A stretch of DNA of 56,440 nucleotides from Holophagaceae bacterium (GTDB taxonomy: Bacteria > Acidobacteriota > Holophagae > Holophagales > Holophagaceae). This document shows positions 30,138-34,887 of the stretch, one piece after another. The DNA lies in NCBI GenBank assembly GCA_003165415.1, contig PLUC01000230.1, positions 1 through 56,440 on the forward strand, written 5' to 3'. Position 1 is the stretch's first letter, and each line of letters opens with the position of its first letter. The position numbers and the translations under genes were made by a program. The notes beneath the pieces were generated by a model. The model was not told where the DNA came from, searched no databases, and worked only from the letters and a program-made list of their open reading frames with translations.

Positions 30138-31520
30138 TCAGGCGCCGCCCAGGGCGATGTCTTCCAGCAGCATGCTCAGGCCGGCGCTGCTGCCGTACCA
30201 GCGCAGGTCGTCCCCCAGCGCCACGATCCGGGTGAGGAAGTCCTTGAGGTTGCCGGCAAAGGTCATGCGATCGACGCTCTCGGCCAGTTCGCCGCCCCGG
30301 ATCCGCACCCCCGAGGCGCCGACGCTCAGGTCGCCGGACACCGGATCCACCGTGTGCAGGCCCATGATCTCGGTGATCAGCACCCCGTCCCCGGCCATGC
30401 GGTAGAGCTCGGCCACGCTGCGGTCGCCGGTGCGGGGGAACAGGTTGAAGGTGGTGACCCCGGGGTTGCTGCCGGCGCCGCGGCTGGCGGTGGCGGTGGG
30501 CGCCACGCCCATTTCCCCGGCGGTCTTCAGGGTGTGCAAGTAGGTGCCCAGCACGCCGTTCTCGATGAGCACGTTCCTCCGGGTGGGCAGGCCCTCGCCG
30601 TCCCAGGGCTCGCTGCCCAGACCTCCGGGCAGGCGGCCGTCGTCCACCAGGGTGAGCAGGGGGGAGGCCACCGGCTGGCCTAGCTTGCCCGCGAACAGGC
30701 TGCGCTGCTTGAGCACGGCCTCCGCCGACAGCATGCCCGCCACCAGGCCCAGGATGTCCAGGCTCACCTCCGGGTGCAGCACCACCCCGTAGCGGCCCGA
30801 AGGCAGCGGCGACGGTTTGAGCTTGCGCTCGCCTTTCAGCGCCGCCTCCCGGCCGATGGCCCGCAGGTCCACGGCGTCCGGATGCCGGCCCATGTCCCAG
30901 TGCCAGGCGGCCTGGCGGTCCCCGTCCTGCTCCACCGCCAGTTCGATGCTGGCCGAGCAGGAGGAGGCCAAGTCATGGGCGCGCACGCCCTTCTGGGTGA
31001 GCAGCAGGGTGGCCCCGGCGCCGTCGGCCCAGGTGGCTTCCCGCACCGCGGCCACCTTGTCCGACGCCTTGCGCGCCTCGGCCTCCAGGGTCATGGCGCG
31101 CTCGATGCGGGCCTCGGGGGTGAGGGCGTCGCCGCGCCGGTCGTGGCGGCTGGGCAGGTCGTCGCTGCCGGCGGGGTCCGCCTGGCGGATCCAGGGATCC
31201 TCGTCGCCCAGGGCGGACAGCTGCCAGGCCAGGGCGAACAGGTCCTTGAAGTCCGGGCGGGTGAGGTCGGTGCTGGTGGCGATGCCGGTGCGCAGGCCCT
31301 TGGGGCCTCCGCGCAGGACCCGCACGCCCAGGCCGCCCCGCTTGCTGGTGGTCAGGTCCTGCAGGGTGCCGTTCTGGACCTTGGCCCGGCGGCTGCGGGA
31401 GACGCTGACGAAGGCCTCGGCCCCCTCCGCGCCCAGGGCGAGGGCTGAGCGGATGCCGTCCTGGAGCCGCTGCTCCAGGGCCTCGCCCAGAAAGGATCGG
31501 AAGCTGGATTGGTCGGACAT
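30138..31520 (-). CDS. TldD/PmbA family protein (PmbA/TldE-like subunit)
   Basis: AEAFVSVSRSRRAKVQNGTLQDLTTSKRGGLGVRVLRGGPKGLRTGIATSTDL..., SRGAGSNPGVTTFNLFPRTGD; lacks HExxxH. Confidence 0.88.
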   Translation of the reverse strand: MSDQSSFRSFLGEALEQRLQDGIRSALALGAEGAEAFVSVSRSRRAKVQNGTLQDLTTSKRGGLGVRVLRGGPKGLRTGIATSTDLTRPDFKDLFALAWQLSALGDEDPWIRQADPAGSDDLPSRHDRRGDALTPEARIERAMTLEAEARKASDKVAAVREATWADGAGATLLLTQKGVRAHDLASSCSASIELAVEQDGDRQAAWHWDMGRHPDAVDLRAIGREAALKGERKLKPSPLPSGRYGVVLHPEVSLDILGLVAGMLSAEAVLKQRSLFAGKLGQPVASPLLTLVDDGRLPGGLGSEPWDGEGLPTRRNVLIENGVLGTYLHTLKTAGEMGVAPTATASRGAGSNPGVTTFNLFPRTGDRSVAELYRMAGDGVLITEIMGLHTVDPVSGDLSVGASGVRIRGGELAESVDRMTFAGNLKDFLTRIVALGDDLRWYGSSAGLSMLLEDIALGGA

Positions 31521-32065
31521 CAGGGCAGGGCCTCTTTGAGGAACTTCTGGTGGATCTGGTAGGTGGCCGCGTCGAAGCAGACCAGGGTCACGAACCGGGG
31601 CAGGGTGTGGTCGGCCAGCCATTCCAGGATGGTGCCGATGGCCACCGGAGCCGCCTGGTCCAGGGGGAACTGGGGCTGGGGCCCGGCGCCGATGCTGGGG
31701 AAGGCCAGCGACTCGATGCCCCGGGCCTCGGCCAGGCGCAGGCAGCTGCGGTAGCAGTGGGCCAGGGCTTCCCGCTCCCCGGCGGTGCCGCCCACCCAGA
31801 TGGGCGCGACGGTGTGCAGGATGTAGGGCGCGGCCAGGCTGTGCCCGCCGGTGATGCGCGCCTCCCCCACCGGGCACTCGCCCACCTCCAGGCACTCCAG
31901 GGCCAGTTCCGGCCCCGCGGCCCGGTGCACCGCCACGTGGACCGGCCCCCCGGCCAGGAGGGTGTTGTCGGTGGAATTGACGACGGCCCCCACGCGCATG
32001 GAGGTGATGTCGCCCAGTTGGAGCCTGAAGCGGTTGGTCATGGTCGGCACCGGGATCTGGGTCAT
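31520..32065 (-). CDS. macro domain (ADP-ribose-binding/deacylase-type) protein
   Basis: RLQLGDITSMRVGAVVNSTDNTLLAGGPVHVAVHRAAG...GEARITGGHSLAAPYILHTVAPIW...ESLAFPSIGAG; stop overlaps the PmbA start (TGATG). Confidence 0.88.
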   Translation of the reverse strand: MTQIPVPTMTNRFRLQLGDITSMRVGAVVNSTDNTLLAGGPVHVAVHRAAGPELALECLEVGECPVGEARITGGHSLAAPYILHTVAPIWVGGTAGEREALAHCYRSCLRLAEARGIESLAFPSIGAGPQPQFPLDQAAPVAIGTILEWLADHTLPRFVTLVCFDAATYQIHQKFLKEALP

Positions 32066-32068
32066 GGT

Positions 32069-34174
32069 TCAAAGGATAGCGGGAAGCGCCTCCGCCGTGC
32101 CGCCCACAGTCAGGGCAGGGCAGAGGATGGTGGGCATGGCGTCGGACACCGGGACCCCCTGGCCGTCCTTGCCGCAGGTGCCGATGTCGAAATGGCGCAG
32201 GTCGCTGCCGATGCGGGTGAGGCCCATGAGCACCTCGGGGCCGCAGCCGATGAGGGTGGCGTTCTTCACCGGGTACTGCACGGCGCCCCCTTCCACCCAG
32301 TAGCCCTCGGTCACCTGGAACACGAAGTTGCCGGTGACCGTGTCCACCTGGCCGCCGCCCATGTGCTTGACCAGGAGGCCGCGCTCCAGATCCTTGACGA
32401 TCGCCTCGGGGGCCTCGAACCCGGGGGCCAGGAAGGTGTTGCGCATGCGCGGGATGGGGATGTGCCGGTAGCTCTCCCGGCGGCCGTTGCCGGTGGGCTC
32501 GACCCCCATCCTGCGGGCGGTCTTGCGGGACTGGAGGTAGCCCTTGAGGATGCCGTCCTCGATCAGCACCACCCGCTGGGCGGGCCGGCCCTCGTCGTCG
32601 CTGGCGCTGGAGCCGCGCTTGTGCGGCAGGGTCCCGTCGTCGATGATGGTCACCCCGGCCGCCGCCACCTTCTGGCCCAGCTTGCCGGCGAAGGCGCTCA
32701 CCCCGGCCAGGGCCAGGTCGGCCTCCAGCCCGTGGCCGCAGGCCTCGTGGATCATGGTGCCGCCGGCGCTGCTGCTGAGGATCACCGGGAAGGTGCCGGC
32801 GGGCGCGGGGCGCGCGGTGAGGGCCTGGAAGGCCAGGCGCACCGCCTCCAGCACGGTGCGCTCCACCGCCTCCGGGGTGAACAGCTCGAAGCCGCTGGTT
32901 TCGCCCAGGGACTGGTAGCCGGTCTGGAGGTTCTCCCCCTCGCCCACGGTGACATTGAGCCTGAGCATGCTCTGGATCCGGCGGTCCTCGGTGAGGGTGG
33001 CGGTCCAGGCGTCCCCGGCGCGCTCCGCGGCGGCGATCCAGACGTTCTGGGTGCTGTCGCCGCAGCCCAGGGACACCTGCCGCAGGATGCCCGGCTTCAG
33101 GGTCTCGCCCCGGTTGCGGGCCAGGTGGTTGGCCCGGCGCACCAGGTCCACCTTCTCGGACAGTGGCACCACGCCGGGTTCCCGCTCGATGGGGCTGGGC
33201 TTGGGCAGGAGCTGGGGGACCAGGGCCGGCACCGGCTGCGGGATGCCGGTGCCGGGGGCCGCCAGGGTCCGGGCGGCCTCCAGCAGCTCCTCCACGGTGG
33301 GGGCGATGAGGTCGGCGAAGCGGGTGGTTTCCCCGTCCACCAGCCTCAGGCTCGCGCCGAAGGTCTCCGCGGCCAGGATGTCCTCCATGCGCCCGTCGTC
33401 CATGCCCAGGGCGCAGGACCTCCGGTGCTCCACGAACACCTCCCCGTAGTCGCCGCCGCGGCCCAGCAGGGCGGCCAGGATGGCGCGCAGCTGGTCGGGG
33501 GTGAACGGGGGCGCCACCGGCGGCCGCCATTTGCCGGCGCGGGCCGCCTTCCAGTGGGCCAGCAGGGCCGCCTCCGCCTGCTTGAGCGGCTCGTCCAGGT
33601 CCCGGCCGTCATTGTGGAACACCCGGTCGGCGTGCAGCACCTTCTCGGCCCCCGCGGACTGGGCGCGGATGCGCCCCATGGCCTCCTCGTGGCCCAGGCC
33701 GTCGCGTTTCATGAGCCGTTTGAGCCGCATCGGCTCCGGAGCCTCCACCACCCAGAGCGCGTCGAAGATATGGGCCTGGCCCCGCTCAACCCAGAGGGCC
33801 GCGTCCAGCACCACGCCCTTGATTCCCACGGGCAGGGCCGCCAGGCGTTCGGCGAGGCCGGCCTCGATGCGCGGGTGCAGCAGCGCCTCCAGCTGGACCC
33901 GCTGGGCCGGGTCGGCGAACACCAGCCCGGCCAGTCCGGCGCGGTCCAGGGCCCCGTCCGGCCCCAGGATCCCGTCGCCGAAGGCCAGCACCAGCTCGGC
34001 CAGCCCCGGCGTGCCGGGCTCCACCACGTCCCGGGCCACCTGGTCGGCGTTGATCACCACCCACTCCGAGGCGGCCAGGCGGATGGCGGCGTAGGTCTTG
34101 CCGGCGGCGATGCCCCCGGTGAGCCCGACGATGGGGTAGGGGGCCTCGGCGAGGCGCGTGTTCAAGCTGGTCAT
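32069..34174 (-). CDS. dephospho-CoA kinase (CoaE) :: TldD metalloprotease fusion
   Basis: Single uninterrupted ORF. N-term GLTGGIAAGKTYAAIRLA P-loop, INADQVARDVVEPG, LDRAGLAGLVFADPAQRVQLEALLHPRI (CoaE). C-term TldD with HEACGHGLEADL (HExxxH) and GRRESYRHIPIPRMRNTFL. RBS GGAG upstream of ATG 34174. Confidence 0.88.
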   Translation of the reverse strand: MTSLNTRLAEAPYPIVGLTGGIAAGKTYAAIRLAASEWVVINADQVARDVVEPGTPGLAELVLAFGDGILGPDGALDRAGLAGLVFADPAQRVQLEALLHPRIEAGLAERLAALPVGIKGVVLDAALWVERGQAHIFDALWVVEAPEPMRLKRLMKRDGLGHEEAMGRIRAQSAGAEKVLHADRVFHNDGRDLDEPLKQAEAALLAHWKAARAGKWRPPVAPPFTPDQLRAILAALLGRGGDYGEVFVEHRRSCALGMDDGRMEDILAAETFGASLRLVDGETTRFADLIAPTVEELLEAARTLAAPGTGIPQPVPALVPQLLPKPSPIEREPGVVPLSEKVDLVRRANHLARNRGETLKPGILRQVSLGCGDSTQNVWIAAAERAGDAWTATLTEDRRIQSMLRLNVTVGEGENLQTGYQSLGETSGFELFTPEAVERTVLEAVRLAFQALTARPAPAGTFPVILSSSAGGTMIHEACGHGLEADLALAGVSAFAGKLGQKVAAAGVTIIDDGTLPHKRGSSASDDEGRPAQRVVLIEDGILKGYLQSRKTARRMGVEPTGNGRRESYRHIPIPRMRNTFLAPGFEAPEAIVKDLERGLLVKHMGGGQVDTVTGNFVFQVTEGYWVEGGAVQYPVKNATLIGCGPEVLMGLTRIGSDLRHFDIGTCGKDGQGVPVSDAMPTILCPALTVGGTAEALPAIL

Positions 34175-34469
34175 TGCGGAAAACTCCAAGGACAGGCGGA
34201 AGATGGAACGAAAGTACCCCGCAAACCGCGCGGGAGGTCCGAACAGTATGCCCCGGAATCCGGACTACTCCACCCCAGATAAGGCAAGGAGCCTACCCCT
34301 AAGATTCATTGTTTATTTCCGTGACCACCCGCGGGACCACCTGCTTCATCAGGTTCTGCAGGGTGACCCGGTAGAGGTCGACATAATCCGTGCTGTAGAC
34401 CGTGTTAATGAACTTTTCCTTGAAACCATCCGCATCGGCGTTGTAGGACGAGTTGACAACAATCAGTTC

Positions 34470-34887
34470 CCGGGCCAACCGGGAGGGCTGCGACCAGGTG
34501 GCCCAGGTGCTCAGCCGCATGGGGGTGGACCAGATCATCCCAATGCAGATCCCTTCCACCAACATCCACATTGATGGCATCCTCAACCTGGCCTCCCACG
34601 ATGTGGCCATGGTGCTCGCTCAGCAGGTGCCTTACGATATGTGCCAGGCCCTGCGGCGAAAGGGCTTCCGGATCCTGGAGGCGCCCTGCACCAGCGAGGT
34701 GACCCGGACCTTCGGCTGCAACTTCGTCGCCATCCGGCCCGGCCTGGTGGTGCAGCCGGAAGGCAACCCGCGCTGCCGGGAACTGTTTGGGAAGAACGGA
34801 GTTGCCGTGATCCCGGTGGACTTCTCGGAGATCATCAAGGGACGCGGCGCCATCCACTGCGCCACCGCCTTCCTGAAGCGCGGCTGA
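34470..34887 (+). pseudogene. amidinotransferase/DDAH-like C-terminal fragment
   Basis: NREGCDQVAQVLSRMGVDQIIPMQIPSTNIHIDGILNLASHDVAMVL...EVTRTFGCNFVAIRPGLVVQPEGNPRCRELFGKNGVAVIPVDFSEIIKGRGAIHCATAFL; upstream DNA instead encodes an unrelated minus-strand ORF tail. Confidence 0.65.

Follow-up and report, generated by a model that had tools for sequence, protein, structure and literature searches.

The window considered here covers positions 1 to 56,440 of contig PLUC01000230.1, from the Holophagaceae bacterium assembly GCA_003165415.1. Its minus strand carries a coaE::tldD fusion gene (32069..34174, 701 codons plus stop) that runs from an ATG at 34174 to a last codon ending at 32072 and a stop at 32071-32069, with zero internal stops over 701 residues. 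A TTG at 34189 offers an alternative start in frame; the fusions of same-genus relatives begin at the position of the window's ATG and not at this TTG. The CoaE (dephospho-CoA kinase) domain occupies 33602..34132 (positions 2-177 of the 180 of Pfam PF01121), with the P-loop GLTGGIAAGKT at 34094..34126 (residues 17-27, including Lys26). At the junction, Trp216 (codon TGG, 33527..33529) stands where two unfused relatives, L257 and L258, have the stop codon of coaE, and Val220 (codon GTG, 33515..33517) holds the ancestral tldD start position, where no Shine-Dalgarno sequence is left. The TldD part, made of three PmbA_TldD domains, spans 32072..33514 and contains the metal-binding motif HEACGH (residues 476-481, 32732..32749) and Cys667 (32174..32176), the equivalent of Cys454, third metal ligand of E. 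coli TldD. All of these features lie on the minus strand, as do a macro-domain gene (31520..32065; Pfam Macro 1.2e-32) three bases past the fusion stop and tldE, also known as pmbA (30138..31520, 460 aa), whose ATG overlaps the end of the macro gene. An earlier note on this DNA had described, without giving the strand, a single uninterrupted ORF of about 701 codons in which a complete-looking CoaE precedes a full TldD. The gene is indeed intact, both enzymes are recognized by Pfam domains above cut-off, and every motif that was quoted is found in the 701-aa protein.

The surroundings of the fusion are variable. A macro-domain (ADP-ribose-binding) gene also separates the fusion from tldE in several other genera, some of which have two copies; elsewhere the gap is empty or holds a gene for an Mrr-like restriction endonuclease (L095:7098-8015). 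Upstream of the fusion in the window, a 144-aa frame on the plus strand (34453-34887) matches the C-terminal part only of arginine deiminase/dimethylargininase and may belong to a longer or diverged gene. An unsystematic look at the fusion's neighbours recognized no RiPP or toxin-antitoxin genes.

The CoaE half matches PF01121 with E=2.5e-45 (154.8 bits for a cut-off of 27) and TIGR00152 with 126.7 bits (cut-off 65.55). In the TldD half, PF01523, PF19290 and PF19289 all exceed their cut-offs, with E-values of 2e-06, 3.5e-04 and 4.9e-70 for the first, second and third PmbA_TldD domains. Against NF008006, the NCBIfam equivalog for E. coli-type TldD, the fusion scores 310 bits, below the cut-off of 513; judged by these profiles, it contains a TldD homologue with catalytic features that stands outside the NCBI E. 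coli-type equivalog. The Pfam scan of the fusion reveals no UPF0157 (GrpB) domain. The best solved relatives of residues 16-191 are dephospho-CoA kinases, and that of the rest of the protein is E. coli TldD (E = 2e-87).

The residues expected in the two active sites are conserved. Lys14, Asp32, Leu114 and Arg140 have been shown to matter in mycobacterial CoaE, as P-loop lysine, catalytic aspartate, substrate-pocket leucine and lid arginine, respectively (PMC3019153). Their equivalents, mapped by eye on the alignment, are Lys26, Asp44, Leu127 and Arg153, invariant in 22 of 22 fusions. A tryptophan (AALW) follows the conserved pocket leucine of fused CoaEs, a Holophagaceae-specific feature of the substrate-pocket region. 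The metal ligands of E. coli TldD are His262, His267 and Cys454 (PMC5810440), and the corresponding HExxxH and third-ligand residues of the fusion (His476, Glu477, His481 and Cys667) are again invariant in 22/22 fusions; TldE lacks the HExxxH and the third-ligand cysteine that TldD carries. With dN/dS ratios of about 0.12-0.36 for the CoaE half and 0.06-0.32 for the TldD half, both are under purifying selection. An AlphaFold model built from 83 sequences reaches a mean pLDDT of 95.5 and a pTM of 0.93 (the mean pLDDT was 64.7 with a fusions-only alignment, before the alignment was deepened), and it superposes on E. coli TldD with a TM of 0.90 of target and on dephospho-CoA kinases with a TM of up to 0.89 of target (0.88-0.89 for 4i1u).

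No second CoaE was found in the window's genome; the presence of a separate coaE, a check proposed earlier, is thus rejected, the CoaE of the fusion being the sole match. Nor does this genome contain a second TldD, as its only other PmbA_TldD match is TldE. Given the intact residues, the dN/dS values below 1 and the sole copies, the fused protein is very probably both the dephospho-CoA kinase and the TldD of this cell.

The fusion extends to the whole family. A CoaE match occurs in 73 of 77 Holophagaceae genomes, and 69 of these 73 have at the CoaE locus a frame that stays open for 676 aa or more. The other four comprise two contig fragments (G082 and G053) and two 1.2-Mb genomes with a stand-alone CoaE (G012 and G020). 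The length of the fusion linker is nearly constant across relatives, and the record UBA706 belongs to the window's genus. In the sister families of the same class, f2 and f3, coaE and tldD are separate genes, unlinked or loosely linked. The survey of related genomes that the earlier note had proposed thus supports its suggestion of a lineage-wide gene fusion, here family-wide in Holophagaceae, in single copy and with the residues of both active sites intact.

Several observations accompany this survey. In sister family f2, coaE lies between genes for an acyl-CoA dehydrogenase, a MeaB GTPase and a histone-deacetylase-like protein (L100:9890-13518); tldD-tldE share its strand and are located about 8 kb further upstream. 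Genus g3 has, besides the fusion, a second, distant TldD/TldE-like pair (G017 contig C84; G007 contigs C51 and C264). Long CoaE frames in three other Acidobacteriota families, f6, f19 and f59 (487-604 aa), were rejected as fusions; their P-loops lie 345-401 residues in, and they reflect long upstream frames in GC-rich DNA. Loci L176, L177 and L186, suggested by tblastn coverage, turned out to be adjacent separate genes.

The two 1.2-Mb genomes with a stand-alone CoaE come from a streamlined genus that, judged by size and family, fits UBA12189, ‘Acidiparvus’ (PMC11561045). Their coaE sits at the locus of the fusion, between the gene for an unknown protein, C4, upstream and that for phosphoglucomutase downstream, which are the flanks of the fusion and tldE in other genera. 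Neither TldD nor TldE was found in these two genomes. Like the fused CoaEs (AALW), theirs has the family-specific tryptophan (here in SAIW), and rpoB trees are compatible with a loss of tldD after the fusion as well as with an earlier branching of this genus. The stand-alone proteins (L097:8564-9202 and L098:8543-9172) are very divergent, sitting on branches longer than 4 when CoaEs are compared in a tree, and have lost the usual lid sequence, so that they may be weak or altered enzymes.

When 396 Acidobacteriota genomes are searched with the fusion profile, the closest TldDs beyond the family score 470-535 bits, against 288-351 bits for the TldDs of the sister families. In all 12 genomes examined from the high-scoring group, which represent seven families (f48, f74, f54, f13, f65, f51 and f41), coaE immediately precedes tldD; the two genes overlap or leave a gap of between a few and about a hundred bases, and tldE is usually the next gene. 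In seven of seven genomes examined with the lower-scoring TldD type, coaE is absent from this position. In an eighth family, f80, represented by a single draft genome, CoaE and TldD share a frame that is cut by the edge of its contig (L269; G348 contig C137, bases 2-1636); about 20-25 residues of the TldD N-terminus are missing, and this is probably a second, different coaE-tldD fusion. In the TldD tree, the Holophagaceae fusion falls among the operon-type sequences, and a grouping with f2 and f3 is rejected (AU p = 6e-06). The CoaE tree is weak: its best topology joins the fused CoaE with f3, and a topology joining it with the operon CoaEs is not rejected (p = 0.20). Inheritance of CoaE and TldD as one linked operon-type pair is supported for TldD, the CoaE tree being too weak to decide. 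Together, the position of coaE beside operon-type tldD in seven families and the f80 fusion indicate that the Holophagaceae fusion derives from an older coaE-tldD-tldE operon.

Traces of such an event can be read at the junction. In two f48 relatives, nine bases separate the coaE stop from the tldD start: TGA GGA GCA AGC ATG in L257 and TAA GGA GAC AGG ATG in L258. At the same place, the fusions read TGG AGA NNN NNN ATG, again with nine bases between TGG and ATG. Counted from the last conserved tryptophan of CoaE, the stop of L257 lies as many residues away as the TGG of the fusions. The correspondence between stop and tryptophan holds for two of four f48 relatives, the genes of the other two overlapping. 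The simplest history would be a change of TGA to TGG that left the Shine-Dalgarno sequence (GGAG) in place.

The old start of tldD appears to have outlived the fusion. Among Holophagaceae outside the window's genus, an ATG stands at this position in 59 of 59 distinct genes. Three codons ahead of this ATG, all 47 genes that encode arginine use AGA or AGG (AGA in 42), although these two codons make up about 8% of arginine codons in these GC-rich genes. In 45 conserved arginine columns, the next highest share of AGA/AGG is 0.43 and the median is 0.02; as the other columns share the same tree, this comparison controls for relatedness. Where serine or lysine replaces the arginine, the codons AGT and AAG also yield GGAG or AAGGA. 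Predicted pairing with the 16S tail averages -6.2 kcal/mol at the internal start, compared with -2.5 kcal/mol at 686 other internal ATGs, and the alanine codon at +2 of this start is GCA in 74% of cases, for a median of 3%. From the conservation of the ATG, of AGA/AGG, of 16S pairing and of GCA, we conclude that selection appears to keep a ribosome binding site at the internal ATG. Such a conserved start would imply a second product, a free TldD, outside the window's genus. In many genomes, the Shine-Dalgarno sequence at the start of the whole fusion is weak.

A second conserved stretch, TTCTG[GT]CAnACTGGA, precedes the internal ATG by 48-34 bases (e.g. L091:5056-5070). It occurs once per locus and uses rare AT-ending codons (CTT 95%, GCA/TCA 98%). 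It is perhaps a promoter element. A hairpin at this place was rejected, since no consensus structure emerged and covariation did not go further than G-U changes.

The window's genus, represented by six genomes, departs from this pattern. The internal site of the window reads TGG CGG CCG CCG GTG, with no Shine-Dalgarno sequence; the ATG is gone here and in L077, the four other genomes keep it without a Shine-Dalgarno sequence, and the second conserved stretch has disappeared as well. Given the loss of the Shine-Dalgarno sequence, the long protein in this genus must presumably serve as both CoaE and TldD, which argues that a fused TldD can work. The dispensability of the signal in this genus is also what speaks for a rather unlikely alternative, in which the long protein alone is made everywhere and the internal ATG and Shine-Dalgarno sequence are relics or answer to some other constraint at the nucleotide level; the second conserved stretch, too, indicates that the region holds other signals. 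Relics would not be expected to keep a rare AGA/AGG at 47 of 47 arginines when no other conserved arginine column behaves alike, nor to show AGT and AAG likewise yielding a Shine-Dalgarno sequence where the arginine is replaced.

The reading that accounts for these data with good probability is that of a family-wide fusion of two most likely independent enzymes, which arose when an older coaE-tldD-tldE operon lost the stop codon of coaE. The fused CoaE would be the sole dephospho-CoA kinase of the cell, catalyzing the final step of CoA synthesis. The TldD half would bind the catalytic metal and assemble with TldE from the same operon into a TldD/E peptidase carrying CoaE on the N-terminus of TldD. 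In most Holophagaceae genera, the retained internal Shine-Dalgarno sequence and ATG would yield free TldD from the same mRNA, so that a single gene would give CoaE-TldD as well as TldD. In the window's genus, the long protein would supply both activities.

A functional coupling, the other alternative of the earlier note, that would make CoaE and TldD/E one regulated unit, with for example CoA, dephospho-CoA or ATP at CoaE gating the entry of peptides to TldD/E, or the reverse, is unlikely. The order coaE-tldD-tldE, which is shared by seven other Acidobacteriota families and whose recurrence coupling would explain, makes some functional link possible, as does the second fusion of an eighth family; every normal-sized genome of Holophagaceae retains the fusion, with a nearly constant linker, and the confident model, through its pTM, suggests a fixed domain arrangement that leaves room for coupling. 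However, operon conservation and fusion may both occur without catalytic coupling, the sister families of the same class manage with separate genes, and the internal start for free TldD in most genera, together with a CoaE devoid of TldD and TldE in the streamlined genomes, speaks against obligate coupling. A broader proposal, which we regard as speculative, is that coaE-tldD-tldE forms a functional unit in Acidobacteriota, where the internal start would set the ratio of tethered to free TldD and the CoA status would modulate TldD/E, or the reverse. If true, it would tie a widespread and poorly understood protease to CoA metabolism.

It is improbable that TldD acts as a folding or stabilizing partner of CoaE, in the way of UPF0157 for mycobacterial CoaE, where the C-terminal partner is needed for soluble enzyme (PMC2765170). 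Normal-sized Holophagaceae do have CoaE in fused form only, and the family-specific tryptophan lies in its substrate-pocket region; yet the unfused CoaE of relatives works, the streamlined genus has a stand-alone CoaE, and the conservation of all catalytic residues of TldD and of TldE means that TldD is not a chaperone alone. An artefact, whether a frameshift joining two genes, a chimeric contig or contamination, is hardly credible even for a draft genome of 273 contigs with an estimated contamination of 7.4%: the N-terminal half does match CoaE, and a frameshift, raised as a doubt in the earlier note, or chance is excluded because the fusion recurs as one two-domain frame in 21 relatives whose assemblies are independent (64-79% identity), as a single uninterrupted match spanning both domains in 36 of the 396 Acidobacteriota genomes, and in complete genomes and named records, which are Holophagaceae and include several type strains of Geothrix, among them Geothrix fermentans DSM 14018.

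The TldD/E peptidase, widespread among organisms but with few substrates identified so far, gains here a recurrent genomic partner in CoA synthesis. Both enzyme families are already known. The literature searched, which leaves many subscription journals out of reach, makes no mention of CoaE and TldD as fused or adjacent, and neither the architecture nor its family-wide fixation, its operon origin or the retained internal start was found in it. The locus offers a living record of the merging of two neighbour genes, from unfused operons through a fusion whose old start is under selection to the decay of this signal in one genus. It is also a warning for annotation, as a single protein will be listed although most of these bacteria probably produce a pair.

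Comparison with known systems places each part of this architecture. With CoaE (PF01121, TIGR00152; PDB 6N39, 1VHL, 4I1U), the fusion shares the whole domain, the P-loop, the catalytic aspartate and arginine, the fold and the single copy; it differs by its C-terminal TldD and by a tryptophan (AALW) instead of the usual leucine after the pocket leucine. With E. coli TldD of TldD/E (PmbA; PDB 5NJ5), it has in common the three PmbA_TldD domains, HExxxH, the third-ligand cysteine and a tldE in the same operon, at 37% identity in structural alignment; it differs by the preceding CoaE and linker, the first 33 E. coli residues being unaligned. Mycobacterial CoaE::UPF0157 (PRK03333 type; PMC2765170) is likewise a natural C-terminal fusion to CoaE, but its partner is UPF0157, while that of Holophagaceae is a subunit of a peptidase and has an active site of its own. 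Bifunctional CoA synthase (PPAT-DPCK; PDB 2F6R) also contains a CoaE domain in a two-enzyme protein; there, CoaE is C-terminal to the preceding enzyme of the same pathway, whereas in Holophagaceae it precedes TldD. Finally, genes with internal in-frame starts producing N-terminal proteoforms (e.g. PMC11005335) likewise have a start codon and Shine-Dalgarno sequence within the frame, from which a shorter protein is expected; the putative internal start of Holophagaceae differs in being the old start of a fused gene.
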